A DNA stretch of 64,000 bases from Sipunculus nudus (taxonomy: Eukaryota > Annelida > Sipuncula > Golfingiida > Sipunculidae): the NCBI GenBank assembly GCA_026874595.1, contig CM049311.1:14723676-14787675 (forward strand), read 5' to 3'. How positions within the stretch are numbered: position 1 is the first letter of the stretch; the number at the start of each line of letters is the position of its first letter. Below the pieces are notes generated by a model. It worked only from the letters and a program-made list of their open reading frames with translations, ran no database searches and was not told where the DNA came from. Of the stretch, positions 1,524 through 63,892 are shown piece by piece. The position numbers and the translations under genes are program-made.

Positions 1524-4500
1524 CTGAAACAACAAAATATCCAGAATATTAAACCTCCACCCACTGCTAAACAAGGACTCCTTACTGACCAAGGATGAAG
1601 ATATTCTGGCAATGTTGCTGAAGACACAGACCAAGTGTGGATGTGGAGACTGACTGATGCAGATGTACATTACTTAATACCAGAACAGGATGAGATATTA
1701 CCAAGGCCATCCTTTGTGAATGTGAAAGAATATATTCATATGATTATGGGGTAATGCAACAAGATCATGACTAACCATATTTTTAAGGAGAAGAACACTG
1801 CATTTAGTTTATACTTTCTTTGTTGATGCAACATACATAGCCATTTAAAAGGATATCAAGTTTACGGCTATGGTGAATAATCTACTGATAACAATATAAG
1901 GTTTAGTTGTATAGACGGCCATTAATGACAATGTCAGTTTCATCTAACTTTACAATTTGACTTCCTGGTCTTGCAGGCACATTCATTCCAGTGCAGTTTC
2001 CTGCCCACATAGGAAGCATATGACTGAAGCCTTTACAAAATGTCATGTGCACTAAAAACATCTGTTTAACATTTGCTTGCTATCAATCACCAGTACCAAT
2101 TCCCTCCTGGGTACAGAACACAACCCCTTGTGATAAGAACATACTGACAAAGGGTCTCTGTATGGAGGATCATTCAAATGGGCAGTAAACCCACAACCTT
2201 GTGTTCACAAGTCGAGCACCCCCACCAAAACAAGATCTTGTTTAATCTATCTTCGTAGTTGTTACCTTGATTTATTTCAAATCCTAAGTCTGAATGATAA
2301 CTGTAAAAGATACAAATAAATTCTCTTATTATGAAAATATGGTCATGGTTACCTTCATCTGTTTCATGAGTTCAAACATCTGTTCTGGGGGTAAACTGGC
2401 CACAGCTTTGGAAATGGCTTCTGGTGCCTTCTCTGGTTCCACAGGGTCACCATACGGGCTCTGTAAAACAAATATTTTCATACATCATGGTTTAAAGTCT
2501 AAAAAAAATATAACTTACTTGTCAGTTGTCACACATGAAGGTAAGAAGAGAAAATGAGAAATGCTACTGTAGGGACCAACCACATCCAAATTTATTCTAA
2601 ACAATACACATTTAAACAATTTTACTCTTGCATACTTCATAAATTTAAATCTTATTTAATTAAAAAGGAAATAATTAAAAAAAGTAAAAAATGTTTAGGT
2701 TAAAAAAAATAATTAAATATTTCAAAGGAGTTTAACTAGTTTTCCCCAGATAATGTCAGCAAATTATTATCAAATACATTTAGGGTGTACTGGTAAAAAT
2801 GTGGCATATTTATAATATTTATAATCTGCTTGGCTTTTTTGTAAATTTTTAAAAATAACATTAATTCAAACTGCCACATCCTGCTAATTTTAAACTGATT
2901 GTTATAATTATCTCCACACACACACACTTTCTCTACAATTTAGACTGATTCTCCCAAAACAATTTTTCTAATTAAAAGTATTTTAATGAAATTAATAATA
3001 TAACTATAAATCACCTCAACTGGTATTCCACCTGTTGCCTGCTGAAGACCTGAAATACATTAAAATGCTTGTATACACAAATCTAGCAGCTCATGTGTCT
3101 GCCAAAATTATTATATAAATCAAACTGATTCTATCAGACATACATGTACATTCTGCACAACCCTTGACTTTTAATGTTATCAAGACTGGTATACAGTAAA
3201 ATATCACTTAAAACCGCACTTCCGATTAAAACCGCGTCCAGACTTCGCCGAAATTCCAGGTGAGACACCGCGAGAGGCTCAAATACTAAGAACCCCCCTT
3301 TAAAACCGCACCAACTTTTGCTACGGAATGATTTGACAAAAGACACAATCAAGCTATCATATAGAAATGAACAGGCGTAGGTTGCAATTCAGCCATTCCT
3401 GTCCACATTAAAACTCCTTGGGCATATTATTTAAACACATCATAACACTTTTTTTTGCAGGGTCACTCAAGCATGAAGTTTGGGAAGACGTAAGGGCCGA
3501 TGAACCTCTGCCTGTTTATACAGATTTTATATTCCGTGCCGTATTCTTGACTACCGATTTGTCATTATATTTTGGAAAAAAAATATTCTGCTGATCCATT
3601 TCAAGTCACTGTATATTTTAATTCTAAAAGTAATATTTTGAAATCTTAATTTTTTATGAAAATTCCATTTTCTGGAATTACTCGGAAGATTCAAATCATT
3701 TTCATACCGGTTACTTCGGTATTATCATCTTCACATCGTACGTTGACATCGCTCCATGTCACAATTTGCTGGTGCGTTTGAAAACATCGCTGGTCTTCTT
3801 AACTAAATATCAAAGTAACTGAAGTTACCTTGTCGAGATACGCACGTATAGGAAACATGACGCTTGAAAACGAGTGATTTTAAGGTAAAATTAAAGTGGC
3901 CAGTCCGGGTAAGCAAGTTTTTTCCTGAAGAAAGTTTCCGTGTGGGGAGCCATTTTGTCAAGGCAGTGTTCGCGCAAGGCACGATGGGACGAAATAGGTG
4001 GCTGTTCTGTTTACCACCCACAGCGTACAGCCGTTCAAAATATTCTTGGCAGAATACCAGGGCGTTTCAGCACATGGCGGCACTCAAACTTGATTTTAAA
4101 ACGATTGTCTGCGATTGTGTGACTCTTTACGATGTCAGCCTTTTATTCATTTTACGTTTGAAACAAATAATCATTGCTAAATAATGCCGCAAATGGGTTT
4201 AAAGTAGGCTTTTATATCAATTTTGCTTGACCATGCCCAACGAAGTGGGCCGCTGTGTGTTACAGCAGGGTTGTTGTAAACGTATTATTTGGTGACAATT
4301 ACCAAGATTTTATAACTAGTTATATATCACACGAAAACTAATCAGCAATATTTAATCTATAAATAACAAATAATCGTAAATAACACATTAACACACGGCT
4401 GCCATGCATGCGAGACTGCTGCTAAGAACGGCCTTCGAAAGTTGCGATATTATCGCCCACTCGCCGGCCCGAAAACGATGTCTGTCAGGAAGATATTCAG

Positions 4501-7500
4501 GAAACCCTTCTAGTATAAACCGCACAGTGCTTTCAGGAAATCAACCTGATTTCAAGATTTTGAATTTCTTGATTAAACCGCGGTTTTAAGTGGAGATTTT
4601 ACGGTATATTGCAAACATTACCATCTAGGCAAATGTTATATGGCCCAATACATATGGCCCCATTCATCTGGTCAGGTTACAGACTTTGGAGTTAAAACAA
4701 TGAACTCAGTGGTATTTGAAACATTAATAGTTTTTAGGCAGTATAAGAAGAAAATAACACCTAAATCTGGTGTAGCCTATTATCAAATAGGCCTACTTTT
4801 GATCCAAAGATTTATTCCACATAACAGTGAAGTAAATTAAACAGACTACATTTGGCTGTACTATGGTTGTCTCCATATACCCTGGGTTATTATTGCATGA
4901 TTTCCAATGTTAAGTGTTTAACAAGGGTTCCATTTTTCATGAATTCACCAGAGTGTAAATTATACAGAATATCATCTAAACAATTCAAGGACGCTAGAAA
5001 GCATCAAACGGAATTCTTGTTCATCACAGTCAGATGATAAAACGGATCCCATGTTGTTTAAAAATATTAATCCATCAAAGATAAGGTAAACAAATGTTAT
5101 AAACAAGGTTTAATTTCAGGATTATTTTCTTTTCGTGATCATTAATCTGAAACCCTGGCAACAAAAAGGCAACCACACTGTTGGACAAAAGGTACCTTGT
5201 ATTGATCTGATCACAATACAGGTATCTTTAGTTAAGCCTGGGTATGAACTTCAGGGATACCAACACCCATTCATATATCAATCTCCTTAAAATTCATGTC
5301 TCACTTTTGATTTCATCCCTGTTCTGTTCACCGGCTGCCACGCCCACTCTGAGTGGTCGGCCGCTGAAGTCGTAGTTGTTCAGGTTACGCATGGCACTCT
5401 GGGCTGTCTCAATATCCTGATATTCACAGAATCCATAGCCCTTTGGTTTACCAGTCTCTCTGTCATATACAAGTCTGCAAAAAAGAGACAGTTTTACTGT
5501 TATGAAAGAGCTACAGTATTACACAAAGGTAATATTCTTACATTGATTTTGTGTGCAGGCTGGAAAGAAATTCTCACATTTATAAAAGATAAGGACTTAC
5601 ATAAACCCATGCGAATTTGATTGGTACATAATTTAGTTTTATACCTCCATCATTCCTTGACACTGCTGAGAATAGTAATGTAATTTTCACTGAGTGCAAG
5701 GAATGAACTTTTCATCACTGAAAGCTGATATGTCAGGAGACCCAACTTGCAGGTGCAAAATTCTGTGTAAAAGTTTAGGAGACGGCTCTAAGCCTAATTA
5801 GATAAAACAAAGAGATTCATAACTGACCACAAAATTAAGAAGCAGCATTTTTTTTATTTTTTTTATGAAAAAGTTTGCACAGACTTGCATAATCAATGAG
5901 TTCCAAAACTCTGTAGAAAATTAAAAGCCAAGATCTAGCCCTATTTGGTAAAACGACCTGAATGTGTATTGGTCAAGAAATTTGGGAAAAGAAGCTTTCT
6001 AAAAATTGTAGAGAGAAGCCAGTTAATGCATCATTAAGGTATTTAAGCTCTTACTGCCTATCACTGGAGATGTCTAATACAAAAATAACTAATACATGTA
6101 TATATCTTTCCCTCACCTGAAACTGACCACTGGGCCAGCCTGGGTAAATATCTCTTTCAACTGTTCTTCAGTTGCTTCATAAGGAATGTTGCCAACTGTA
6201 AAACAGAAGAATAAATGAAGTTAAGGATATCTGGATATGTGTTCTTTTTTTAATCTGATACTCTTCCATAAAGCAGAATCAATCACTCCAACTAATTTAT
6301 CCATAATCAGATCAGTTTAAATGCAGCCATTCATTTAATTAACAAGTTGAATTTTTTTTAATAAATAATGAAACATCAGAAATTCTGCATATGATGAAAT
6401 TTACAGAGAACAATTCCTTGATGAAGTGTATTTCTAATTAACAATAATTACAAATTGGATAGACCAATTTACGAATCTGGTCTGCATTATTGGGCATGTT
6501 TTGATTAAAATTCTTTAAAAAAGGGGCAACAAAAGAAAGAATTCCCTAGTTCAGAAGTTTGCCCCTGAATATTCTTGGATTTCTGCTTCTAGATCACATC
6601 CTGCGGCATCAGTTGTTGACTTAAGATGATATGAACATATGAAACAACACTACCGTACATACTTAACAATTTGGAAACTGAATAAACTGGGAAACAGTAT
6701 TTTCTGAAATAAATAATTATTTTTCTTTACTTAAAAATTCGAAACCGTTCAATAGCTGGAGAGAAAATATGTGATTTTCATTAGCTGTCATATTGCTGAT
6801 TCGCTGGAAGTTGCCATCTAGCCTAGGACTGCACTGAATGGAAAACACTTTAGATTTGTAATTCATACAAATCATTACTTAGGGAGAACAGTAGGCCATA
6901 ATAGCCAGGGGTACCAGCAGGGGTTTTGGAAACCTGTACATTCGGGGACTCCTGTGGGACAGCTTATATGTTTTGGCAATATTTTCTGAGGGCAGATCTC
7001 TTGCCGACCCCCAATTTGCTGAAAAAAAAATATGTTGCTGACCGCATGCCTTGATAGCCGAGGTAAACAGACAGGTTGGGAACTACCCTAGAAGACAACT
7101 GGTGCGGTGGGACATAATAATAAAATCAGAGCGACCTTTTCCCCAACACCTTTGCCTCCGTTTTCTTTTCATTTGTCAGAAAAACTTCTTTGTTAAAACA
7201 ACTAAGAACATATACATGGCCCTCATGATACCATAAAGATGTAAATGTTGTTTTAAAATTATAATTGACTTATCTATATTATATGTATACATGCTGATCA
7301 TAATTTAAATCCTAAATCAACGAGCAAAATTTTTGCTTAATCTTAAATTATTTAAATATTTAATTTTATAAACACTGAATATTCTTGCATTATCAAAGAT
7401 TTACATCCATTAAGTGATGCTTTTCATGATCAAATGTAACACAGATCTCTAACATTCTCTAATCAATAATTTACTTTCTCTAAATAAAACTATTAATAAA

Positions 7501-14059: not shown

Positions 14060-15085
14060 CTAAAATGTAGCATAGCCAAGAATAAAATAAAAGATCTAAT
14101 TTTGGGTAAACAATTGAATCTTGATTAAATAAAGTTATATTCCTGAAAAAAAAGTCTCCAGCTTCAGCAATTCTCATGTAAGGTGAGTAAATATATTTCC
14201 TGATTTTTTTTAAATTTCATTATAAATGGGCCCACAACTTCTAAATAATACCCAATACTGACCTAATTTTTTATATGTTCATAGAAAATGTATGGAAGAA
14301 TATGAATACAAAATATGATCAAAAAAAGATCAGTGGTTTTGATATTAGGCAGCCTTGAAGTGTAACAATGGCTTTTATATGGAAAACGGAGGTTTTCCTT
14401 AATATCTCGAAGGAACAAAGTCCTAATGACCCAATTTTCGGTATGGTAGGAGATTTTGGGGATATCTAATGGAATGCAAAATTTTGGATTTGTAGGTCCA
14501 ATGGTTTTAAAACGTGCCCTGTTAACGGCCGGACGGCCGGACGACGGACAAAGGACCATGACCATAGCTCAGATGACTTATAGTCAGCTGAGCTAAAAAC
14601 GTGCCGTGGCCAAAGTTAGATATAACTTAAGGAAGGAACAAAGTCCTAATGACCCAATTTTCGGTATGGTAGGAGATTTTGGGGACATCTAATGGAATGC
14701 AAAATTTTGGATTTGTAGGTCCAATGGTTTTAAAACGTGCCCTGTTAACGGCCGGACGGCCGGACGACGGACAAAGGACCATGACCATAGCTCAGATGAC
14801 TTATAGTCAGCTGAGCTAAAAACGTGCCGTGGCCAAAGTTAGATATAACTTAAGTACTGATTTTTTTTATTTATGAAAATAACTTGATGAATTTGCAAAA
14901 TTCACATCTAGTTTTGAGTAAATGATTTAATTTTGATGAAATAAAGTTATATACCTGAAAAAAGAGTCTCCAACTTCAGCAATTCTCATGTAAAGTGAGT
15001 AGAAATATTTCCTGATATTTTACAAGGTGTATTATGTTCTGGCGCATGACTTCAAGAAATTACAAAATACTAACCAATTTTGTAT
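14060..15085. repeat. Second-level duplication flanking the 223-bp repeats
   Basis: A segment with 'aataaagttata..cctgaaaa' and 'cttcagcaattctcatgtaa' at 14125-14280 recurs at 14935-15085, about 811 bp later, and brackets the 14409-14854 tandem pair. This indicates nested rounds of local duplication. Confidence 0.65.
14409..14854 (+). repeat. Near-identical 223-bp tandem duplication of an AGCTCAG-hairpin repeat
   Basis: The block starting at 14410 recurs at 14633. The copies are almost identical, so this is recent. Each contains a GGACGGCCGGACGACGGAC stretch and ends in the hairpin with arms AGCTCAGATGACT and AGTCAGCTGAGCT (14566-14594 and 14789-14817), then AAAAA. Confidence 0.85.
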
Positions 15086-18949: not shown

Positions 18950-19474
18950 TATCAAAATTTAACAATTTTATTTTCTGGAAGGAAATAACTGAGCAGCTGT
19001 AGCTCAAAATCAGTAAAATTCTGCTGAAAATGAAAACAAAATTTTACATTTTGGCAGATTTGACCTTGAAGATGAGAGTCAAGGTCACTGGATTTCGAAC
19101 TCAGCCAAGAACTTGGTAGGAACAATTTGTGTACAAAATTTGAGGACATAATTTGAAATGCTTCAAAAGTTACGGGGGTTCAAAAGAATTTTATATTTGA
19201 GCAGATTTGACCTTGAAGATGTGGGTCAAGGGCACCAGTTTTAGAACTTGTCCAAGATTTTTGTAGGAACCATGAGTGTATTAAATTTTGGAGGAAAATG
19301 TGTAGCCCTTCAAAAGTTATCGGGTTCACAATATAACCCAACAAATTTTACATTTTGGCAATTTTGACCTTGAAAATGAAGGTCAAGGTCACCAGTTTTG
19401 AACTCAAGTAAACAGCTGTTCAGGTATTGTGTTCACAAGATATCCTACAGACAATGTCGATGACAACGACAGAT
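18950..19474. repeat. Degenerate tandem repeat carrying TCAAGGTCA / TGACCTTGA motifs
   Basis: Three diverged units of about 150 bp share 'ttttacattttggca', 'tttgaccttgaa', a TCAAGGTCA-like motif (19079-19087 and 19383-19391, plus one variant) and 'cttcaaaagtta'. No coding signal was seen. Confidence 0.6.
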
Positions 19475-20111
19475 GATGGCACCAAATTCAACATGGCTCC
19501 CCTGAGGGGGGGGGGGGGGGGGAGGGGGAAGACATAATAAGATATAAAATCTTGACAGGCAAAAGACAGGAATACTATTTGAAGTTTGACAAATAATGCA
19601 ATTATATATAAAAGATGGGTCCACTTATGAATTAAGAAATTCATGATGGGTGGAAATGAGAAATGTGAAAATTTCAATATTTCTTTACACATGTATTAAT
19701 TACAGACTATTGAAACTGAATTCATATGATTATATTAAAATATAAACAAAATTTTAATGAGTGAAAGTGCATAAAGAACGTTAAATATAAATATGATGGC
19801 ACCAAATTCAACATGGCTCCCCTGAGGGGGGGGGGGGGGAGGGGGAAGACATAATAAGATATAAAATCTTGACAGGCAAAAGACAGGAATACTATTTGAA
19901 GTTTGACAAATAATGCAATTATATATAAAAGATGGGTCCACTTATGAATTAAGAAATTCATGATGGGTGGAAATGAGAAATGTGAAAATTTCAATATTTC
20001 TTTACACATGTATTAATTACAGACTATTGAAACTGAATTCATATGATTATATTAAAATATAAACAAAATTTTAATGAGTGAAAGTGCATAAAGAACGTTA
20101 AATATAAATAT
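19474..20111. repeat. Near-identical 320-bp tandem duplication ending at a splice donor
   Basis: Copy 1 (19474-19794) and copy 2 (19795-20111) are nearly identical apart from the length of a poly-G run after 'ctcccctgag'. Both end in 'ttaaatataaatat'. On the minus strand copy 2 starts at the third base of the intron after exon 16 of the large gene. Minus-strand ORFs here (90-95 codons) are duplicated repeat sequence. Confidence 0.85.
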
Positions 20112-20205: not shown

Positions 20206-23200
20206 CTGTCAAATAAAAGATGTGCAAGTAATAAAATATGGTAATGAATGTCTGAGGGTACATTGGGGGTGTCTAGGTTTATATCTGGGATGTTCATGCA
20301 CACTAGCTTACATCTGAATATGATAGAAAAAGGCCAGAGCAAAGTTAGGATATTATTCACACTGATTTTCTACACTAAACTTTACATAAGATACCAAAAT
20401 GAAAACATGGTACATACATTCATAATCATATCATTTTCATAGGAATTTAGGACTGACCTTTGGTTAATACCTTGAGTGTTTTGATGACCTCCTGCTTGAG
20501 GGCACCACTGGTACTGTTGACCATGGTCAGGAGCAGCTGTGAGGCATCAACCTGCTGGAACAGCTGCAGAAGTCTCACATCACTCTTCACCAGCAGCTGT
20601 GTTAACCTCAAAGCTGTTAGAAAAAATAAATATAGCTGTTAAATTTATCTCAAAGCTGTTAAAAAATAGAAAAAGAAACAACTAAATTCACTTAACTTGA
20701 TGAAACTGTTCTGCAATCATCCATAATCTTGAGAATCATAAGATGATTACCTGCAACATGTTTATAAAACATGGCAGAGTATAAAATAAATATTTGCTTA
20801 CTGCAAGATAATAGTTTGATAAATGATTTAACTATGAGAAAAATGAACAAGAGACCAATGGGTCATGATGCTCAGCTGACTGATGCTTTGCTAATATCCC
20901 CATGCATGTGCATCCAAAAGATTTCATTACCAATGTGTTTTCTTAACACTGTCATTTTTCCTCGAATAGATGGTTTGGACAAACTGTCCATCTGACAACC
21001 ACCTCTCCATATTTGATAAAAAGGGGTATCACTGTAGCTCAGATGAGTTACCGTCAGCTGAGCAAAAATTCTCTAAAGTATCTGATACTAATAGCTGTAA
21101 TGATAACAGTAACTCTTGAAAGTGAGACATGTTACTTCAACAAACCTTAGGTCAGCTCCAATATCTACCCATGAATAATGTGACCTCTGATGGCAGATTT
21201 GGTAACTGCTCAACAAATTAATATATCACAGTAGTGTTCTAGTGGGCACCCTCAAGATTTTAACTTGACATTTATGAGCATACACTTTCATCAGGATTTT
21301 TGTACATGGTTACTGAAGAAAGTTTTTTGAGCAATGGTATTTAGAGTAGATATTTCATAAATGTGATCAGTGATCCTGAGATATAATGAAAAAAAAGTTA
21401 CACAGTGGTACTTCCTAAGGTGCCTCACCTAACATCTGTGTGACTGCTTCATCTTCTGAGATGCGGAGGAAGTCAACCAGGCTCCTTACCAAACCGCATT
21501 CTGATAGTTTCATGTGGATGGCAGTCTGTTTGGGACAAAGGTAAAACTTGTGATAAATAAAACAAACAAATACAATAGTTATAATTTTTGAACTAACATT
21601 ACAGTCAAAGTGCACAAGTGACCCATGGGCTATGGTGCTCAGACCTGAGAAAAAAAGAAAGAATAAGTGGCAATGAAATATGCGGCACAGACTGACTTCA
21701 ATGAAGGAAATTAGAAATATGTAAATTTAACAAATGATTCAAATCCCAGTTGTGATTCAAATTAAGAACAAAATATCTGATGGCTGAACTAAAACTGCCA
21801 CAACTAATCTTTTTTTCTGTTTTTAGAATACATAAATTAATTTGTGTGACAAAAACACTGTAAAACCCAAGTGGCACCACCAGTCTTAACCAACTGCAAA
21901 TCAAATTCAAGGCAATCCATGCAAACATCAATGAAAAATTTGATCTTTTGTGTGAGATTTTAATGCTACAAACCACTTTTAGTGAGATTTATCAACTTTT
22001 AATTACATTTTAACAAACTGGTTAGGCAAACTTTGATCAAACTTTCCATGAGGAGAGGGCTTTAAGTATGCATGAATGAGGTACATCATTTCACTTTAAA
22101 GATCAAGTGTCAGCAAATCTTGAACATTAACAAGCCACTAAGAAAGAGTGCTGACAATTTTCCCCTAAAGCTGGTAGGGTAATGGTCACCACAAATTAAT
22201 TTAAATTTCCATGGAAAATTCATCAGGATCTGTCTAGATGTCAAATTCAAACATTTCTAGATCAAACCATTACAGTGAGTGCCTTACACAAGGCTGGACA
22301 GAAGGAACGATGATCATGATAGCTATGTATGACTGATCAATAGTCTTGGTGCTTTCATAAGGTATCAATGGTAATCAGATCATGAGTGCTCTGTGTCATA
22401 CCTTGATTTGGTAACAGGTTGAATCAGAAACAGATAAAAGTCTTTTAGTGGGTCATAGTGCTTGTTTTGAAGAAATAGTGCTCACAGTATTTGGAAAATT
22501 GTTATCAATTATATTGACTAATTTTAACTTACGTCGATCATTTTGATTACTTCTAACTTGCGTCACGCAATTTGACTACTCCTAACTTGCGTCACTGATT
22601 TTGATTACTTCTAACTTCCGTCAAGCATTTTGACTACTTCTAACTTGCGTCACTCATTTTGATTACTTCTAACTAACATCACTCATTCTGACCACTTCTA
22701 ACTTACGTCACTCATTTTGACTACTTCTAACTTACGTCACTCATTTTGACTACTTCTAACTTACGTCACTCGTTTTGACTACTTCTAACTTACGTCACTC
22801 ATTTTGACTACTTCAAACTTACGTCACTCATTTTGACTACTTCTAACTTACGTCACTCATTTTGACTACTTCTAACTTACGTCACTCATTTTGACTACTT
22901 CTAACTTACGTCACTCATTTTGACTCCTAACTTACGTCACTCATTTTGACTACTTCTAACTTACGTCACTCATTTTGACTACTTCTAACTACCGTCACTC
23001 ATTTTGACTACTTCTAACTTACGTCACTCATTTTGACTCCTTCTAACTTACGTCACTCATTTTGACCAGGCTGTAGAGAAACACTAGTGCCTCCTGTCTG
23101 GCTGGTAGACTCTTGCTGAGCAAGTCTTTGACCACATGTCTGCAGCACTGACTGACCATGCTGTTCCTGCACTGACCAGTAACAAACTGCAGAGGATCAA

Positions 23201-26200
23201 GCTTGGGTTTCCATTGCAACGGGCCCAATTTTTCATGCTGCTTGACTGCCTTCATCACTCCTGAAAACAAAACCATAACATGCCATACAACCAAGGAGAA
23301 AAAAATGTTGTGATTAGAGACCAAATGAATTAAATAAAACATGAGTTTTATCCATGGACTTAAAATAAGGTTCAACTTACTGGATGTTCAATACAAGCAG
23401 GCTTATATGTTAATAATTTAAATTCAAATTTTGAGCAGGTAACTTCAACACAAGTGGCTTATTTGATTTAAGCATGCTTGACACAAAAAGGCTTTACTGT
23501 ACAGTGGAACTTGTATGAAAGACCACCTAATAATAGGACCACCTGTCTATTAAGACCATCCACGAGTGACCCCCAAACGTGGCCAGTCCCAAAGGTGGTC
23601 TTTCTTATCACACATGGTTTACTGTATATTCCCTATTTATATTTTACTAATTTTTTGTCTCTTCCCATGGGGTCATTAAAGAAGTAGCTTCTTAAGCATT
23701 TGCACATCTATCACAACATTAATTGAAATCTAAGGCTTATCAAAGAATGCCTTGACATGGTCCTTCTAAAATGTTTAAACATGGTAGGGATCTTTGTTCA
23801 AAATAATAATTTATGATAAAAATTTAACACAACAAAAGCATAGTCACTTCCTTACTACATACAATTAAAACCTTACATAAATTACTAAGAAATACTGACC
23901 ACTGTTAGGTCTTGATTTTCTGCCTGATGGGGGTCTGTTTGAACCTGCACTGTTTACTCTAGTCCCAGCAGTCATTTTACTTTCACCAGATTTTGCTCTA
24001 CTGGGAGGACTCGGCTTGACAATGTGTTGTGATTTGACAGAGTGCGCTGCATTTACTGTCTTGTCTCCTTGACCTGCTTCGTCCTTGCCAGATTTAACTG
24101 TTGCAGAGGTTGGACGACTGCGGCTACCACTTCTAGGTCTGGGCTGGCCAATATTACTTGAACCAGCATTTTCTTTGCTGGCACTGTCGTTCATCTTACT
24201 CTTTCCAGAACTGGGCCTGATACTGTTTCTCTCCCCCTGATCATCTTTTCTTTCTTCTGACTCACTCTTGTCAGTTTTTAAAATGTGTGCACTAGACGGT
24301 CTTGTTCTTTGTCTGTTGGCCCCAGCACTCTGTGGCCTTGACCTTGCTTTTGCACTTTGAGGTCTAGATGGTGCACGTTTGAATTTTTCATAACAATCTT
24401 CATACTGGGTGGCTGGGGTTCTTGGTCTGGGAACACCTAAGTAGTTTGCATTGTCCTCATCCTTCACTTTCCTATCAGAAAGGTCTTCTGTAACTCTGAC
24501 ACAGCCATTTGATCCTGCCTCACTTTCAGCTTGACCTATAACATGACCTTTTTCAGTGACCTTGACCTTGCAGTTTGATCCTGCCTCACTTTCATCTTGA
24601 CCTTTGACCTTTACAGTATTTCTAGTGTTTGTTTCCTTGGTGATCTCGCCCTGCTGGCTGACTGTCTCAGATACTGGTTGATCTACATTTACTGATACAG
24701 GAACACTTTGATTATGATGCTGAACACTTTCTTTTTGCTGTTTCTGACTGGACTGGTTCAGAGCTGCTGCTGTGTCTGCCAGCATCTGACGAGCTGCCAA
24801 ATGTAATTTATGGTCTCTCTCCTGACTGGTCATGGCTGACACAGGTCTGAAATACAATTATATTTATAACTGTATTTACTAATTTAGAAAAGCACTCACA
24901 TAGCATATACCTCTGCTAGCACTGTATCTGCACCCTTATCCACCCAAAAATTTAAATGATCTGCCCCAAATTTAATAAAATATTAATTTACTCAAGGCCT
25001 ATTATTCCTCAAGTTTAATTAATATTTACCGAAAACTTCTGGAGATATGTACTGACAACAACAAAAGTAGAAGCCAAAATGGGTAGCAAACTGGACTGCT
25101 TATCAATTTAGGATTACTTTTATCAGCTCAAGTATCTTTCACTCTTCATGGTTCTTACTTGCCACCAGGTAGTATGTAAATTTAATGCTGAAAACAGGGA
25201 AATACATCAGAAGATCTTTATTCTATTATACCTCCTTATTATTTACTGTAATGTGGTAGTTGCTGTTATTAAGTTACACTTTTTGACATCACTGTGATGT
25301 CACACAGATCAGTCACAGACATTTAGCAATTGTTGATTGTCCCATGGTCTACCCTTTAAAATAGTCATTGAAATTAAAGGAACATAATCAAGAGCAATAT
25401 TATGCCTATTCTTAAACACTGTCAGTTAAGTTTTGCTTTATACAAAGTTTCCCAACAAAACCATCCCAGCACACAGTCTCAGTACCACCCAAATGGCTAT
25501 TTAACAACTTGTTACAGTTCGATCTGCTTGTTGGTAAACACAGTCCATGTGTCTGTTTACCATAACAAGGCCTCATGACTGGTGGTCCGATTGTGAGTCG
25601 AAACACACAGTGGTTCAGCCAGCAGGAACTTGTATCACATTTTTTGGGCTAAGTCAGTCAGACCTGTTGTGGTCCCGCGATGCACATGCTGTGTTTAAGT
25701 TAACCCCTGTGATCACGCCCGGTTGACTGTTTTTAACACTCTTGTACAGTAGTATGCAGACAGTTTCAGGGCAATATTTTGGCAGGTACAATTTATTTTA
25801 AATGGCAGAAGCTTTTTTCTATGTTAATTCAATAATTCAACATGCTTTAAAGGTGATTATGTCCCTTTAATTGAGAGTCTTTGTCTTTTTCCTATGGACA
25901 AACAAACAGATCTGATCACAAAACTCTGTTGGCAAAGGGACAAAACTTAAAAAGAAATGGTATTGCAACATACATCTGGTTGTAAAACTCCTCAAATTAA
26001 AAAAATTATTACCTTTTCAAGTGGCCTAGTTCTGTTTTAGCAGGTGAATGGATTTTCTCTGACACTGACTGGGAAAAGTTCTCAAGAATCTTGTGAATGC
26101 GACACTGAAAATAAAAGGTATTTAGGAATAAATCACTGGCAGCAGTTATTTAGGAATAAAATATATTCACATACATTATATATGAGACAAAGATCATTAT

Positions 26201-32200: not shown

Positions 32201-35200
32201 TGAAATCTGCTGAGGAATTTAACTGAGGTGAGAAACTCTTTTGGTAAATATGTATAATGAGTTTCATGAAAATCCATAGGATTTTTGTTAAGTCACCACA
32301 GGGCCTCCAAAGTATGGTGACCTCTGAGGCTCTCACCTCATTAAATATGCACAGATTTTCCTGAAAATCAAACTAAGGCGAGATATTTTACTGATTAAAA
32401 TTTCTGATGATTTTTATCAAAATCCTTCATATTCTTTGTAATTTTTTCACCACAAAGTAGCCTAGTGACCCGTGTTTTTATTAAATATGCGAAGATTTTG
32501 CCTATAATTGAAATTGGGCAAATTAATATTTTTTTAGTAGTTATGGTGTGTTTGGTGAAAATCCATGAAAGTCCTTGTAAGTTATCGCGGCGACTATAAA
32601 AGTTATCAGATGGACAGATGGTGGGTATGCCATAATGATATTCCTGTCATATGACGGGCATAAAATCAGTTGGTAACAGTTTGCAGGTGTTTGTTGCATC
32701 TGTTGGTCATTAAAACCAGGCACCACTGTACGAACATTTACCCAAACACTCAAACACAATAAACATTTTAATCCTTCACACATTTTTATATGACAAGTAG
32801 TAGCTTCTGTGATATCATATATGTCTGTTTTGTAAGTCTGCTGAAAAAGTTGGTCCGATTTTTTAAGTCCTGCTACATATGCAAGGACCAGTAACTTTTA
32901 ATTACACTCTCTTCATGTCATGACAATTCATTCGGACACCTGACCTGAGCATTACCATATGCCTGTGTCATATGAAACATGGTCTGTTTTCCACTGTTAA
33001 TCAGTAAATGCTTTTCACTGCACCTCATAACAACAACTACAAAATGTTGAATACCACAAGAATGTTCCCACTCCCTTCTAGTTTAAAGCTTAATGAAATA
33101 AATTTACCATGGTCCGTTTCTCAGCATGTTGAGAGCTGTAGGCAGAGCATCTATGTTTAACACAGATGCCCGCGTGTAGTCAGTATGAGCCAGGAGATTG
33201 GTCAGCACTTCAGTGTACACTTCCTATGAAACACAAAACAATCATAATGTATACTAAGTTTTTATCCAGAAAGAATCTGTAACTTAATGTCACAATCTGT
33301 AATGTACAGTTACAATCTGTAATTTATTGTCATAATCTGTTACTTAGTGTCACATTCTGTTATGTACAGTCACAATCTGTAATTTATTGTCACAGTCTGA
33401 AATGTACAATCACATTCTGCAATTTATTGTCACAATCTATAATTTATTGTCACAATCTGTCGTGTACAGTCACAGTCTATAATTTATTGTCACAATCTAT
33501 AATTTTTAGTCACAATCTGCAGTTAATTGTCATAATCTGCAATTTATTGTCACAATCTGAAATGTCCAGTCATAATCTGCCATTTATTGTCATAATCTGT
33601 AATTTATTGTCACAATCTGTAATTATTGTCACAATCTTAATGTACAGTTACAATCTGTAATTTATTGTCATAATCTGTATTTTATTGTCACAATCTGTAA
33701 TTTATTGTCAAATTGAGCTTCCTAAGTAAGTAGATACTTCCTTTTGGAAACTGTACGTCACAAAACAGACAGGAAACAAACCACACAATCTCTACTGACA
33801 TGCTGGTAAACATTTTATAAGTTTCTCTTTTTAAAAAGCATATAGCTGTTGCAGAATATATGACAATGAAATTTTAATGGGTGACAAAGTAATGAGTTTT
33901 GAATATTCCTACCTGGCATTCTGTGTTGAGTTCCTTCAGCTTGGCTACAGCCGGGAGGAGTTGGTCTATGATGAGGATGGCCATGTCACTGTGAACAGCC
34001 AGAGCCCGTACAACACAGGCTGAGGAGTGTCTGACTCCGGCCGGCTGGCGTGGTCCCATACAATCATTCAGAACCTCCAGCCCCTCGCTCATCATCAGCT
34101 CACTGTACATCTCTAACAGGTCCGGTGCTGACACAATCTACAAGGGAATGATAATTTAAAATATTACATATTCTTTTTATTGTGAACAGTCAAGTGGTAA
34201 CCCACTTGGCTCTCTCTGCTGGTTACCCAGGTTCAAGAGGGGGTTGCAGTGGTCCTTCCGAGGTTTTTGGTTTTCTCTTGGTCCTATAGTATCCTCAAGC
34301 TCTATAGGATACCAAATGCCACCATCTGAGCTGGGGCGATTTCCTCAAGTTATCTTAATTATTTGTACAACCGATGCAAAATAAATAAGTTAAAATTAAT
34401 ATTTATAACAAATAGATGAATAGAAACCATTAAACATTTCAGATTGTGAATAAAATGTATTTCAAAATAAAAAAAAAATTTCCCCATCATTGAAGGTTAA
34501 ATCATTACATCATTAATCATATCATTTATCATCATATCACATATCATGATGTATTATATCATGTAATGTTATACTACATCTCCTTAAATAATATCATATT
34601 ACACCATGATCAAGTAAGAAATATCAGAAAAACCTCTAGGGATAAAAAGCTGAAACATCTATTTGAAGATGATATTATTTATTCATGTAAGAATACCTTT
34701 ATAATTTCCCATGCACAATGAAGATAAGGGAAGTAAAAATTTACTTATACTATCTAATTGATCATGTTTGCATATGTGCTTGCAAAATTTAAATAAATTA
34801 GAGTAAAAAATCACTGAATAAATTCATCTGGCTTCAGATGCTGCCCTGACCTTCGCAAGTGCCACAGCTGCTGCTTCTTTCACTGAAGATGCTTCGTTAT
34901 CTCGTAGTGTCTCCAGGGCCTTGTTAGCTACATCATGGAAAAGGAATTTGAACACATTGCTGTCCCTCTGACAGAGCTGAGCCACCGTCAACCATCCTAG
35001 CTCACACACTGACCAGTTATCATGCTCAATGAAGTTCAGCAGCTGAAGGATAAAAGATAATATGAAGTTTATACTATTGTATCTAACAGAAAGTACCTCA
35101 GTGTCACATTAATTGATTTCACTTTCCACTGAGTTTTTTTAATAATATTCACACTTAAAGGGACCTAATCACCTATCTGACCTTTAAAAACTAAAGGTAA

Positions 35201-42800: not shown

Positions 42801-44170
42801 AAGGATTTTATTAGGCATCATGACAACTGGAGAACTGTCAAACTAAAGTAGGCGGAGCTTACTGGTCCGAGGGGTCGGTCATCGGTAATCAGGTCATGGG
42901 CTACCCTGCCGGGGCACGCGTCAGGTGTGAAGTGACTGGTAAGAACGATCACTCTGTTTACTTTGCGCTCTCATTAAGACCATCATATACCCTAATCCAA
43001 TTAACAGCTTTTCTCTCCCTCTCACAATTATACATGAGACACTACATAGCTAGCAGCAACACATATCTCTCTCTCTCTCATTAGATTTATTTACACCAGT
43101 CATATACGCGCTAAATTGTGCTGCGGCCGCTCTTCCTTTACCGATTGCTCTCATAGCTAAGACTCTGGCGTGGTTCACTTCGCAAAATTTGTTAGCAGGC
43201 GACGTGGTGGTGTAACTTGGTGCTGCATTCCTCTCACAATATTCATTTGTGCAACGCAGTCCCATATTACTGCACCACCCTCGGCGTTTATCTACATCCT
43301 CCACCAACGACACGGGAACCTTGTGATCAGCAGTATGTGACTGTCTCTCGTTCAAATAGCAAATTTTATCTTCGCTCATTCTACTCTATTTTCTTCGACC
43401 CATGACGTTCAGTGTATATTATAGAAGAAGGAACGATGTATTCGGTAATGGTTTTGGCAATGTAATGATGGACCCTAAGAGAAAATATAGTGTATAACAG
43501 GGTCAATATTACAGAAATAAAAATCGGTAAATTCATATTTCTGGGTATATTCTTGGTGCAAGGACCATTATTGGGTGACACTAACATATTTTAGGGCAGT
43601 GACATAGACATTATTGGTATTAATTAGTGCCAATTAGTAAGTGCCAGTAATAAAGAAAAGCTCTTTCCCGGCTGACTGACCGCGGCTTCCCCACGCCTGT
43701 CAATCAACCATTTGCCTCATACCGCGAGCGCATGGTTAACCAATAAGCAATTTACACGCTGCTAACTCTCGCCGAGCTGACAGTTGGTCCTGTTTGCACC
43801 CCATGTGGGGTTGACATCTGAATTAAAATACTTATTTTTCTAATTGATACAATATAACCCCAGGAACGTGTTTTTGTGAAAAGATAGATATAGCAAACAT
43901 CTATAAAACCAGATGTTTTTCAGAAAAATGTAATTTTCATGATTTTTTACGATGATTAGACCTTAACTAGTCCTTTATATTCTGGCCTGCTTCAGTTTCC
44001 TCTGTGGAATATGCCTGGCATTCACTATTTGGTGTGAACACTGACCCATGGCATGGGTGATGGGGCGTGTCACCAGGTTGTGGACACTCAGCCATTGCCA
44101 CCAGTTGTATTGCCTTTGAAGGGCAGCTCTGATTGGCTGGAAAAACTTTGAAAATAGGTATGTGTATGTA

Positions 44171-58755: not shown

Positions 58756-59085
58756 TCAGACTTTGTCAATGATGGCAGACTTGTGTTTACTCCGACTGGC
58801 TTTTCTGTGTATTGCTACGCATTTGTTAGAGTCTGGAGGACTTGAGCGCAGGGTTTCGACAGCACCGAGGAGCCATTTTCTGTGACGTTGGTCCCGAATA
58901 CCACAGTGTTGTAGCTCAGGGTCTGTGGCGCAGTTGCGTAATTTTTCGATTGTGGACAGGCTGGATTCAGCCAACAGATCTACATACATGGGTAAACCAC
59001 AAGACACTAAAAACTCCTCTACACTCGTTGCGATGTATTCTGCGCTCCCTGTATTGCATGCTTCAACAAAACTATCACAGGACAT
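58756..59085 (-). CDS. SASH1: SASH1-like terminal exon with SAM2
   Basis: It begins MSCDSFVEACNTGSAEYIAT, contains the SAM2 domain, and ends in a basic tail KASRSKHKSAIIDKV with TGA at 58758-58756. Confidence 0.9.
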   Translation of the reverse strand: MSCDSFVEACNTGSAEYIATSVEEFLVSCGLPMYVDLLAESSLSTIEKLRNCATDPELQHCGIRDQRHRKWLLGAVETLRSSPPDSNKCVAIHRKASRSKHKSAIIDKV

Positions 59086-62000
59086 CTGAAACAAGAAAAC
59101 ATAACATTTATGATGTGATTACAATATATCCAAAAAAGTAAATGTCATGAAAGTGATGAAAATTAATATCACCATTAATTGCCAGAATCCTCAGGTTGAT
59201 TATTAAAGAAGATACATATCACAATTTATTGCAAAGTTGACAGAATATATATGAAAAGTGTGTTTTGATAAGTTAACAAATATTTCACGATAATGGTTTT
59301 TTTATGTCAATTATTCTTTGTATGCTACTAATAAGTAAGAAATCTTATCAACACCTACGCTTAATTTTTCTATATTGTTATTATAACAGAATGATCAATA
59401 TTTAATACACATCATATGTTCAAATCAGTGCTGTAGCAAATTAGATAGTCTAAGTAATAGTAGCAATACCACTCACTACCCGATACTCACTACTGGTTTC
59501 TTTTCATGTTGTAAGCGCTTAATTCGACAAATTTCTACAGCTGCTGCCACCTGGCGAGGATCTCTTTGCATTTCATCAGTATAACGCAAGACTAGAGCAA
59601 CTGGCACACCACATGAGCCATGCTGAAAAAAAAGTATTGTTATGTTGTGAAAACAGAAAGGTTATCTTGTGAATTTAAATTGCAGACATGTGACAACTTC
59701 ATGCAGGGTGAAAGCAGGGTATTGTAATAAATATAATACACATCATCTGAAGGAACAGAATGGATCAATGTTCAAATTGTATTTAATTTACCTGGATATA
59801 ACTTGATATATTTAAAAAAAAACTTTATATGCATTTGATAAACTAGAATACGGGTAGTCGACAAGCGACTACGTGTATCCGCCTAAATCAGAGTGGAACG
59901 GGTGAAGTGAGGCATGGATTGAGTGGCAAGGGGAAATAGAGTGTTGCATATTAGCATGGATGTCTGCAGCCAAATGGTGTATGAAGGTTGCCCCCCCCCC
60001 CCCCACCACAAAATCCAGAAAGCCATCCAAGTTGTATACATATGCCAAATATAAGGCAGATAAGTCAAACCACTACATGTATATGAGTGATTTAAGCCCG
60101 TGGCAGACAAACAGATGGACGCTGAGCAAAAATGGTTGCAGGTGACGCCACCAGTTTTGCGTATGATAAAGAGCTATGTGAGAACTATACACATGCAAAA
60201 CTTTGGCCCAATCGGTCAAACGGTTCCCAAGATATGAGCTTGGATGTCTGCTGCATAAACTAGAATGCAGGTGGCGCCACCTGTCATAAAATCAAGAGAG
60301 CTGTCGAGGATGTATAAACCTGCAAAATTTTAGGCAGATATGTCAAACCACTGCCGAGATATGAGTGATTTTATCCCATGGCAGACAAACAGACAGGAGC
60401 TGTGCAAAAATGGCTGCAGGTGGCGCCACCAGTTTTGTGTATGATAAAGAGCTAAGTGAGATCTATACACATGCAAAATTTTGGCCCAATCGGTCAAACG
60501 GTTCCTGAGATATGAGCTTGGATGTCTGAAGCGTAAACGTGAATGTAGGTGGCGCCACCTGTCATAAAATCAGAAAAGCTATCTAGGATGTATATGCATG
60601 CTGAATTTCAGGTGAATTAGTCAAGTCACTGCAGAGATGTGAGTGATTTTAACCCAAGGCAGACAAACAGATGGACACTGTGCAACCATGGTTGCAGGTG
60701 GCGCCACCATTTTTTGTGTATGTTATAAAGCTCTCCAAGGGCTACATTTGTGCAAAAAACTTTTCCGGATCGGTCAAACGGTTCCCGAGATATGAGCTTG
60801 GATGTCTGCAGCGTAAACGTGAATGTAGGTGGCGCCACCTGTCATAAAATCAGAAAAACTATCCAGGATGTATACGCATGCCGAATTTCAGGTGAATTAG
60901 TCAAGTCACTGCAGAGATATGAGTGATTTTAACCCAAGGCAAACGAACAGATGGACACTGTGCAAACATGGTTGTAGGTGGCGCCATCATTTTTTGTGTA
61001 TGTTATAAAGCTCTCCAAGGGCTACATTTGTGCAAAAAAATTTTCCTGATCGGTCAAACGGTTCCCGAGATATGTGGGTTTATGTGTGGAAACAGACGCA
61101 CAAACGGACGCAGAGCGCAGAGGAAAGGTCAGAGGTCAAAACAAAATCGGGGCGCAGCAGTTCACATGTGACCCGAACATAATCCCGGGTTTCGTAAAAT
61201 TCCGCCCAGCTGTTACGGAGGAGTTCTCCGACACCTACGCGGCAGCGGCGGCGTGCAGCTGAAAACATAGTATCAGCAAAACTCTGTTTTGGTGGATACA
61301 AATATATATACAAAGAATTTCATGTGATACTAAATAAAATATTTATAATCTTGTCTGGTTATCTATACAACTTTATGAATATTTCAATTCTGTCAATTTG
61401 TATTGATTCTCCCCAGACCCATCAACAATCACACTGACTCTTGTCAGAGCCATCGATAATTATATCAGTCTTCTTGCATCACTGGTTGATGTATCGATAC
61501 ATGCAACATGGCAGCCTCTTAGTGTAATTAAGTTTTATTTATTTTTCATATAGCATACCTGTAGTAACAGTTTTTTTTTTAATTAAACAACCAATAATTC
61601 TCTATTATTTTGAGACTGCTCCTGTTAAAATGGTATATAATGTGATAACCACCCCAAAATAAAGTGAGTTAAAGTGACTTTTTTCAGTTTTTCCATTTTT
61701 ATTTATAAACAAATAAATCATGAACAATTTCTCACCACAGTAGTGTATGGAGGCGCTGTTAAGTCTATATTTTCCTCTGCTACTTTCTGGGACAACAAAG
61801 TCTCTAGGCTTTGTGATACACTATGCCGTCTTTTTTCCGAGGAAGATTTGCCAGTGGCTTTCCTAGGGGTTTCCGGAGATTGGAATGTGGACATATAAAT
61901 ACTCCCTTCTCTCGTTGCTACACTTGATGTTGTCTGGTTTTGGTTACATACGCTACTGCAAGTCCTTGGTATATTTACGGTATTTAATTTATCCAAGGTC

Positions 62001-63892
62001 ACAAGGCTGACTCTGGATGCATCTGCACTGGAGAGTGACACGGTTCTCTGGGGAATGGAGGGTCTTGGTTTTGCATGAGCTTTGTAACGTACATTTACTG
62101 GTGTCCCTGATGCCTGGACTAGCGAGGATTCGGTGGACTTTGTAAGCCCTCGTTGTGACGATACCCTGGCAGGGGGCGCTGGTGCAGTCTTTGAATGCAC
62201 TGTTTTGCATCCCACTGATATTGGATGAGTGCTTGCAGCAGAACTTTTACTGACCGGTCCCTGAGAACCTACCAACTTATTTCTCTGATATTTGAACTTC
62301 GTTGGCAGAGTGCCTGTACCGTCCTTGTACACGTTCTTGCTTTGATTTCCAGCTGGACCTTTCCGAGTTTTAGGACTTCCATTTGATGCTGCAATAAAAC
62401 TGGGAAATTTTCCCTGAGAAGATGATACAAGTTCTACAGACCGGCGGCCATGTTCTTTTCTATTTGTAATGGAGATTACTTCCTTATCTTCAGTCGTAAA
62501 CATGGTCTCTTCTGACAGTCCGTTCGGCAAACAAACTCCAGTTTCAAGGTCCTCTTCCTCTTCCTCTGGAGGTTTGAATGTACTGAATGCACTTTTAGAG
62601 GTGGTGGTCTGACCTTCACCTTGCATTGGTTTGACCACAATTGTACAGCTGTCAGTGTTACCACAATTTTTAATACGCTCAGTCACCGGTTCATTATTAC
62701 ACTGGGTATTAGTCCCACTAACTATTTGAGTCTGGCCATTCTCTTTCACTTTATGTTTGCCGGGAGAACACGGCGTATCTCCAACTCCTAATGCACTTTG
62801 TCTTTTACTGTGTGTCACATGACTGTGTCGTGTGTGTTGCGGGATTGAGTGTCTGTGTTGTGGACTGGAATTTCTGTTGTCATGACAACCACTCTCTGCT
62901 GCCACGGTAACTGGAGAATGAGTTGACGATTCACTGGAATGGCTTGTTGGTGTTGACCTCTGGGACTCGTCAATGTCCAGACCTAAAACAACAAAAATAA
63001 TAAAATTAAAATTATTATTAAAAAAGACCATTTTGATATATAGGAATTACCCTTAGATCCTACTTTCTGTTTTACCAACAATGTCAATGTAATTTACTTC
63101 ATATTTAATCACCAACTAGTATTTATGTATATGGAATTGCTGAACCAATTATATCCAGTAATCTGTCTCTATCTACAGACAGCTTACTGGATATAAGCAC
63201 ATTTGAAAGATGAAAGTTAGCTTTATCTTCAGTTTGCAAAAACTAGGAATCACTGTACTTATTTTCTGGGTAATATCATGTTTTAATTAAAGGCTCTAAT
63301 TCTTGTGATTTAATATTCCTCACTAGTTTGTCACTAGCAGAGCAAAGTGCCAAGACCCAGTGATCAATGTTCATACAAGAGTAAAACAAAAGGATTCAAC
63401 CAAGAAGTTATTATTTAGGGCAATAATGGAAGAACTACTATTGGTTAAGGCTAAAACTGATGTGTGTCTCTGGGAACTTGACTAATTAAGGTCACAGAAA
63501 CCTAGTTGCAGGAAAAAGTATGAGAACATGACCAAAGGTATCTGCACATGATATGGGATGTACACAACCATCTGGTTGCAAAACTTAATTGTCTGACAGA
63601 CAAATGGACAGATGGAAAAACAGGGATTGCTATAGCTCAGCTGACAATATTTATAGCCCTAATGGTGGCAATATATGGGTGTCTAACAGACAAAATGGGG
63701 TAGGGTATTCACAGATGGACAAAGGGTGATGAAAATCATACCATCAAAGTCCAGGAGGAGTTCCGCTGCTGTCAAAACTTTAGCTCTGTCTTCTCCAGAT
63801 GTGATTCCAAGGTCATTCAGGTCACATTCATCAAGCTGACTGAATAAATCCAACGTCTCGAAACGAGATTTACCAAAGGTCAGCAGCAGATG
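58756..63892 (-). CDS. SASH1: SASH1-like adaptor (SAM and SH3 domain family), 3' part of gene
   Basis: SASH1 is a cytoplasmic scaffold in TLR/NF-kB and cytoskeletal signalling with an SLY region, an SH3 domain and two SAM domains. Four exons read leftward: 63742-63892, 61736-62982, 59491-59622 and 58756-59085. They give 619 residues plus stop with matching phases. The first carries the second half of a SAM domain (LFSQLDECDLNDLGITSGED). The 1,247-nt exon is disordered, Ser/Thr/His-rich, with an acidic run EEEEEDLETG. The third encodes HGSCGVPVALVLRYTDEMQR, resembling the CGVP..LV.RY.DE segment that precedes the last SAM in SASH1. The last holds SAM2, with 'VEEFLVSCGLPMYVDLLAES' and 'CGIRDQRHRKWLLGAV'. 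The SH3/SLY part is off the right edge. Family assignment rests on the two-SAM order and the GLPMY motif; another SASH member (SASH3/SAMSN1) is less likely because they have a single SAM. Confidence 0.75.
59491..59622 (-). CDS. SASH1: SASH1-like exon with CGVP..LV.RY motif
   Basis: 44 codons, phase 0: HGSCGVPVALVLRYTDEMQR, DPRQVAAAVEICRIKRLQHE, KKPV. Acceptor TTTTTCAG, donor GTGAGT. Confidence 0.85.
59843..61296 (-). mobile_element. Helitron-like repeat, copy C (both ends present)
   Basis: Read on the minus strand it starts TCC inside a hairpin with outer arms GTATC and GATAC (61299-61270) and inner arms CAAAAC and GTTTTG. It ends in a perfect hairpin (GTAGTCG and CGACTAC, 59872-59854), then CCGTATT and CTAG, with T next. 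GGTGGCGCCACC palindromes lie at 60270, 60419, 60548, 60697, 60828 and, with one mismatch, 60977. Each is followed or preceded by 'cggtcaaacggttcc.gagatatgag'. No helicase ORF. It lies in an intron of the SASH1-like gene. Confidence 0.65.
61297..61735. other. SASH1-like intron, remaining sequence
   Basis: AT-rich, no element recognised. Confidence 0.5.
61736..62982 (-). CDS. SASH1: SASH1-like large linker exon
   Basis: It encodes GLDIDESQRSTPTSHSSESS to ..ENIDLTAPPYTTV, a low-complexity linker with many Ser/Thr-Pro and basic sites and a His-rich patch (HRHSIPQHTRHSHVTH). Acceptor TGTTTTAG, donor GTGAGA. Confidence 0.88.
62983..63741. other. SASH1-like intron
   Basis: Near 63590-63660 there is a 'gacagacaaatggacagatgg' stretch and a 'tatagctcagctgac' word, a weak relic of the AGCTCAG-hairpin repeat family. 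Confidence 0.45.
63742..63892 (-). CDS. SASH1: SASH1-like exon with SAM1 C-terminal half
   Basis: It encodes HLLLTFGKSRFETLDLFSQL through ..KVLTAAELLLDFD. Acceptor TTTCCGTAG, donor GTATGA, phase 1. Confidence 0.85.

Follow-up and report, generated by a model that had tools for sequence, protein, structure and literature searches.

A 29-bp minisatellite that starts in the last codons of a predicted exon and runs on into the following intron is probably a mirage, a tandemly duplicated exon-intron boundary, and among its serial 5´ splice sites the exon-proximal one is probably the one used. The phenomenon is already known: the array matches published mirages and is a well-formed, copy-rich example on a predicted exon. 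It most likely has no useful effect. All positions given below refer to the window, that is, the whole stretch of 64,000 nucleotides that was analysed.

Tandem Repeats Finder delimited the array (Table 1) with 90% matches and a score of 903, which bears out the original prediction of about nineteen 29-bp repeats at an exon-intron junction, the exon itself being predicted. The array resolves into 19 head-to-tail units on the minus strand, from 23066 down to 22519, with the consensus GTCAAAATGAGTGACGTAAGTTAGAAGTA; eighteen units measure 29 bp and unit 5 measures 26 bp. When a 24-nt core was searched for with at most three mismatches, 18 matches were found in the window, all within the array, and none in 100 shuffles. 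Evidently, the array is real and confined to one place in the window.

Each unit is composed of 15 nt corresponding to the predicted exon and 14 nt corresponding to the intron, donor included, and unit 1 opens with the last 15 nt of the exon (23066-23052), which encode VKMSD. The array ends abruptly on the exon side: in the 29 nt preceding unit 1, 4 positions agree with the unit, against a random mean of 7.8 (sd 2.3). At the opposite end, the matching level of a probable 20th unit was equalled by 0.26% of 5000 random 29-mers from the window, and the 29 nt beyond it show 6 matches to the consensus, which is background. About one third of the predicted intron is occupied by the array. Near copies of splice boundaries, defined as at least 24 of 30 nt on the same strand within 4 kb of the boundary, exist for one of the 24 modelled boundaries of the gene, and this is the array boundary with 18 copies.

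The underlying gene model comprises 12 exons on the minus strand, from 37477 to 21429, and was built from open frames and splice-site consensus. It begins inside the gene, and the exon with the array, numbered 13 in the original prediction, is the 11th of the model. The joined frame is open through exons 1-9 and again through exons 10-12 of the model; since phases mismatch between the ninth exon (ending at 27345) and the tenth (starting at 24846), at least one exon is absent from the model between these positions. The array exon, 23260-23052, has the entry phase 1 demanded by the previous exon and the exit phase 0 demanded by the next one. Its codon score is 18.4, which speaks only weakly for the exon, because the exon itself belonged to the training set of seven and scores as high as 14.5 occur in other frames of this stretch.

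Table 1. Position of the array, its parts and the neighbouring predicted gene features in the window.
Feature	Position	Strand	Basis or remark
29-bp minisatellite, 19.2 copies	22514..23066	-	Tandem Repeats Finder, unit table
Unit 1	23066-23038	-	first 15 nt continue open frame ...FLYSL-VKMSD, then GTAAGT TAG
Young block, units 1-13, near-identical	22693..23066	-	GTAAGT in 12 of 13 units
Old block, units 14-19	22519..22692	-	2-5 differences from consensus; GTAAGT in 1 of 6 units
Probable decayed 20th unit	22490..22518	-	15 of 29 matches to consensus
Predicted exon, 209 nt	23052..23260	-	open frame and splice-site model; enters phase 1, leaves phase 0
Predicted intron, 1526 nt	21526..23051	-	modelled exon coordinates
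Next predicted exon (TAIHMKLSECGL..., TAIHM)	21429..21525	-	enters phase 0
First GTAAGT, presumed real 5´ splice site (GAC|GTAAGT)	23046..23051	-	U1 duplex -5.7
GT of alternative exon end CTG|GTCAAA, at array edge	23065..23066	-	U1 duplex -2.6
In-frame TAG, met on use of any donor of units 2-19	23043..23045	-	18 of 18 cases

In amphioxus globin genes, exon-intron boundaries have been described as duplicated in tandem in a minisatellite-like manner, many of the units carrying splice signals; the report takes the name mirages and an earlier case from amphioxus Adh3 (PMC3087553). A further amphioxus mirage lies in PGBD5, and TnC is cited beside it (PMC3902484). The array shares with the amphioxus cases (Adh3, BflGb6, BflGb9, PGBD5, TnC), as described in these sources, its minisatellite-like build, the spanning of a boundary, splice signals in many units and, apparently, partial homogenisation within the cluster. 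Its tandem unit spans the predicted exon-intron boundary and includes the splice site, and the presumed authentic boundary is the terminal copy, with the other copies intronic; this again depends on the predicted exon and agrees with the sharp exon-side edge. The dimensions differ. Here a 5´ splice site is repeated in about 19 copies of 29 bp, whereas the units reported for BflGb6 and BflGb9 have 150-160 bp, those of Adh3 10-72 bp, and the PGBD5 repeats 60 and 108 bp. In amphioxus, moreover, splicing and allele variation were examined, two haplotypes of BflGb6, for instance, differing in unit number (6 and 3; PMC3087553), whereas the present array is known from one sequence alone.

Related arrangements have been reported in human genes. 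The minisatellite of IFI6 (6-16, G1P3) provides multiple splice donors (Turri et al. 1995, cited in PMC4526556), and two downstream repeat units are used as donors there (PMC4526556). The present array resembles it, as far as that source describes it, in having several repeat units with a consensus donor (13 of 19), donor use being predicted here; in IFI6 the downstream units give isoforms, whereas in the array their use would run into a stop at once. In human paralogues within segmental duplications, minisatellites described as variable internal tandem repeats modify gene structure, with units averaging 30 bp, some at exon-intron boundaries and possibly forming novel introns (PMC2812944). According to the same source those repeats average 4 copies and are retained in exons or make new introns, whereas the present copies, about 19 in number, lie in a single predicted intron. 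Tandem duplication of AG|GT proto-splice sites as a route to intron gain was considered for the array and rejected, the consensus donor context being GAC|GT and not AG|GT.

From these features we infer an exon end at GAC and the following course of events. A 29-bp segment straddling the exon-intron boundary would have been repeatedly duplicated into a minisatellite, and later unequal exchange, slippage or conversion would maintain the likeness of the units near the exon, those farther away being left to decay. The spliceosome would use the exon-proximal GAC|GTAAGT, so that the copies are removed with the intron, and any leaky use of a downstream copy would give an early-stop transcript (VKMSDVS*), presumably cleared by nonsense-mediated decay.

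Divergence from the consensus rises with distance from the exon (Spearman 0.71 for the 18 units of 29 bp, which are non-independent; reached by 0.04% of 5000 permutations), in effect as two blocks rather than a smooth slope. Units 1-13 carry 0-2 differences (12 units of 29 bp, the 26-bp unit 5 being left out), against the higher values of units 14-19, much as the original prediction had it in calling the exon-proximal units nearly identical and the distal ones decayed. The old block alternates in a dimer-like manner, G1A being common to units 15, 17 and 19 and A10C to units 16 and 18, as would be expected from an earlier dimer duplication. The further proposal of array growth starting at the exon border agrees with the gradient, but homogenisation beside the exon predicts the same pattern. 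Boundary duplication followed by exon-side homogenisation would fit the data. Substitutions did not differ between exon-like and intron-like positions (13 of 25 in positions 1-15, P 1.0).

One detail of the amphioxus data stands against the mirage interpretation on one side of the array. In BflGb6, units at the cluster boundary are described as lying outside homogenisation (PMC3087553). In the present array, units 14-19 at the intron end show such an exemption, whereas unit 1 at the exon end, with a single change, does not.

Upon closer examination, the donor is less regular than the unit. It had been claimed that every unit carries GTAAGT, which proved incorrect: GTAAGT is present in 13 of 19 units (1, 2, 4-13 and 19), the variants being GCAAGT in units 15, 17 and 18, GTTAGT in unit 14, GGAAGT in unit 16 and GGTAGT in unit 3. 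Accordingly, the picture of a ladder of equivalent donors holds for the 13 units, whose U1 pairing is equal, but not for the other six. The window contains 33 GTAAGT on both strands together, 13 of which are those of the array.

The claim that a TAG in frame after the first GTAAGT lets the first donor alone leave the frame open was confirmed by computing all 18 alternatives. Donor use at any of units 2-19 gives ...LVKMSDVS*; the transcript would gain 29-519 nt, with the stop 20-510 nt ahead of the resulting junction. Since a later junction follows the next exon, nonsense-mediated decay of such transcripts would be expected. With a dozen identical 5´ splice sites at 29-nt spacing, the array offers a natural experiment on spliceosome choice, and the outcome can be read directly, as the first donor alone leaves the frame open. 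If the organism is not a lancelet, the range of mirages would extend beyond the lancelet and human cases found in the literature searched.

Use of the exon-proximal donor is not assured, because SRSF1 favours the intron-proximal one of the two DOK7 donors, 11 nt apart (PMC5585400), and because of the downstream units used in IFI6. For hnRNP A1, preference for the distal donor is cited (PMC5585400). As to mirages themselves, the Adh3 data and RT-PCR of the globin genes suggest, as presented in the amphioxus report, that they leave regular splicing undisturbed (PMC3087553).

The order of events might also have been the reverse. An ordinary intronic array could have come first and the exon end could have slid into it later, the GTAAGT of unit 1 replacing an upstream donor such as CTG|GTCAAA and adding VKMSD to the protein. 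We regard this as rather unlikely, although several features agree with it. Both the CTG and the GAC ends preserve the frame, leaving the exon in phase 0, and the edge of the array coincides with the codon boundary CTG|GTC. Arrays are, moreover, common in the window (for the 64 kb, the Tandem Repeats Finder output has 32 rows, overlaps included), so that an intronic array beside an exon would not be improbable.

What weighs against a former CTG end is mainly its pairing with U1, scored as a duplex with the 5´-end sequence of U1. The remaining 11 modelled donors range from -2.9 to -10.7. CTG|GTCAAA falls below all of them, by 0.3 relative to the nearest, whereas GAC|GTAAGT pairs more strongly than five and more weakly than six. 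Pairing with U1 equally good was found for 38.7% of the 7162 GT sites on both strands in the case of CTG|GTCAAA and for 6.9% in the case of GAC|GTAAGT. In a single-sequence fold of the exon peptide, the last predicted helix covers residues 51-67 of 69 and so runs into VKM, which may lend weak support to VKMSD as the exon end, the confidence of the fold being low (mean pLDDT 61.7). The Pfam Arm score hardly changes with these residues (11.1 with VKMSD, 11.2 without). An argument from protein repeats was tried and given up: local alignment to the next stretch scores at best 22 when VKMSD is included (shuffle mean 20.9, P 0.37) and 19 when it is left out (P 0.60), and a pairing of VKMSD with LVKSD made by eye is absent from the best alignment of the stretch with the following one. 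On U1 pairing, the exon end GAC|GTAAGT is favoured over CTG|GTCAAA, not proven.

Another interpretation ascribes a role to the ladder: downstream donors would be used appreciably, and array length would set the share of stop-containing transcripts and thus gene output. Its chance is slight in our estimate. In its favour, 13 of 19 units carry a GTAAGT that pairs equally well with U1, the stop is the same whichever of units 2-19 is used, and the IFI6 donors, which include two downstream repeat units, offer a precedent (PMC4526556). In addition, the donor T is hit by 5 of the 25 substitutions in units 2-19 (P 0.0015; 0.042 when corrected for 29 positions), as if old decoys had been silenced. This enrichment is, however, fragile. 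Units 15, 17 and 18 share one change, probably by inheritance, and counting 3 events of 23 gives P 0.043 and a corrected value above 1; the position was picked after inspection, and the whole donor hexamer is without enrichment (7 of 25, P 0.25). Amphioxus mirages, too, are reported in the cited sources without disturbance of regular splicing (PMC3087553, PMC3902484).

A functional ladder is possible but unsupported. In its most developed form, which we likewise hold to be improbable, the exon end and its donor would evolve in concert with 12 near-identical intron copies, the number of intact copies tuning splicing to the stop form. If true, unequal exchange would drive a dial on gene output whose setting varies with array length.

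Finally, it is very improbable that the exon prediction is wrong and that the array is just a minisatellite, in an intron or between genes, unrelated to splicing, or else a cluster of sites of the sequence TGACGTAA, which we take to be bZIP-like: coding-like scores in other frames and the 13 occurrences of TGACGTAA on both strands of the window, 12 of them within the array, could be read this way, but the exon is flanked by splice-site consensus, its phases fit both neighbours, the joined frame stays open, and there is no pointer to regulation.

The mirage interpretation, to which we return, concerns a gene whose identity gave no match at curated cut-off, either with Pfam (nine frames and the joined exons) or with NCBIfam (six frames). 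Below cut-off, Pfam yielded HEAT (E 0.053, frame 34824-35108) and Arm (E 1.2 for the upstream part, E 0.46 for the part with the array exon); PAXX, Oxidored_molyb (E 0.0061, the lowest), SNARE, Trimer_CC and three bacterial NCBIfam models, also sub-cut-off, were taken as chance. In the PDB, 41 distinct sequences showed a match to the upstream part with E values up to 1. The best were the engineered OR366, OR497 and OR329 (E 0.0005, 0.0044 and 0.01), which we take to be armadillo designs, followed by catenin beta-1 and importin alpha (E 0.3-0.8); the part with the array exon had no PDB match. These sub-threshold matches would weakly label the protein as armadillo/HEAT-like.

Relatives of the exon peptide were sought in virus and prokaryote collections, where 38 pattern matches in viral contigs and 113 in genome contigs left none confirmed; a 21-nt core of the unit had no match in viral contigs. 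As the collections searched were those of viruses and prokaryotes, this absence means little. Rfam at gathering thresholds gave no match in the window.

Several other features of the window deserve mention. The same gene contains a second minisatellite, at 33274-33710 on the minus strand, in which a 20-bp unit is repeated 22 times (77% matches); ACAG, resembling a 3´ splice site, occurs in many of the units. A gap of 51 nt separates the array from the predicted exon 33223-33108, whose acceptor it does not include. Among the 11 longer arrays measured, only this one and 22514-23066 come within 51 nt of a modelled exon. Past the last modelled exon, two tandem duplications, 19473-20111 (317 bp) and 14409-14854 (223 bp), consist of two copies each and are probably recent, as the copies match at 99%.

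Elsewhere, frames at 2341-5464 (minus strand) match the CSTF2 hinge domain and an RRM, and the gene next door therefore probably encodes cleavage stimulation factor subunit 2. A frame at 43065-43352 (minus strand) has a below-cut-off match to the Mutator-like transposase PF20700 (E 0.00024), and minus-strand frames with SAM-domain matches lie at 58774-59088, above the curated cut-off, and at 63749-63841, below it. Arrays of 337-bp and 280-bp units at 186-1150 and 60081-61074 have a consensus with GGTGGCGCCACC; as GGTGGCGCCACC also recurs near 29220, these loci may represent an interspersed repeat family.
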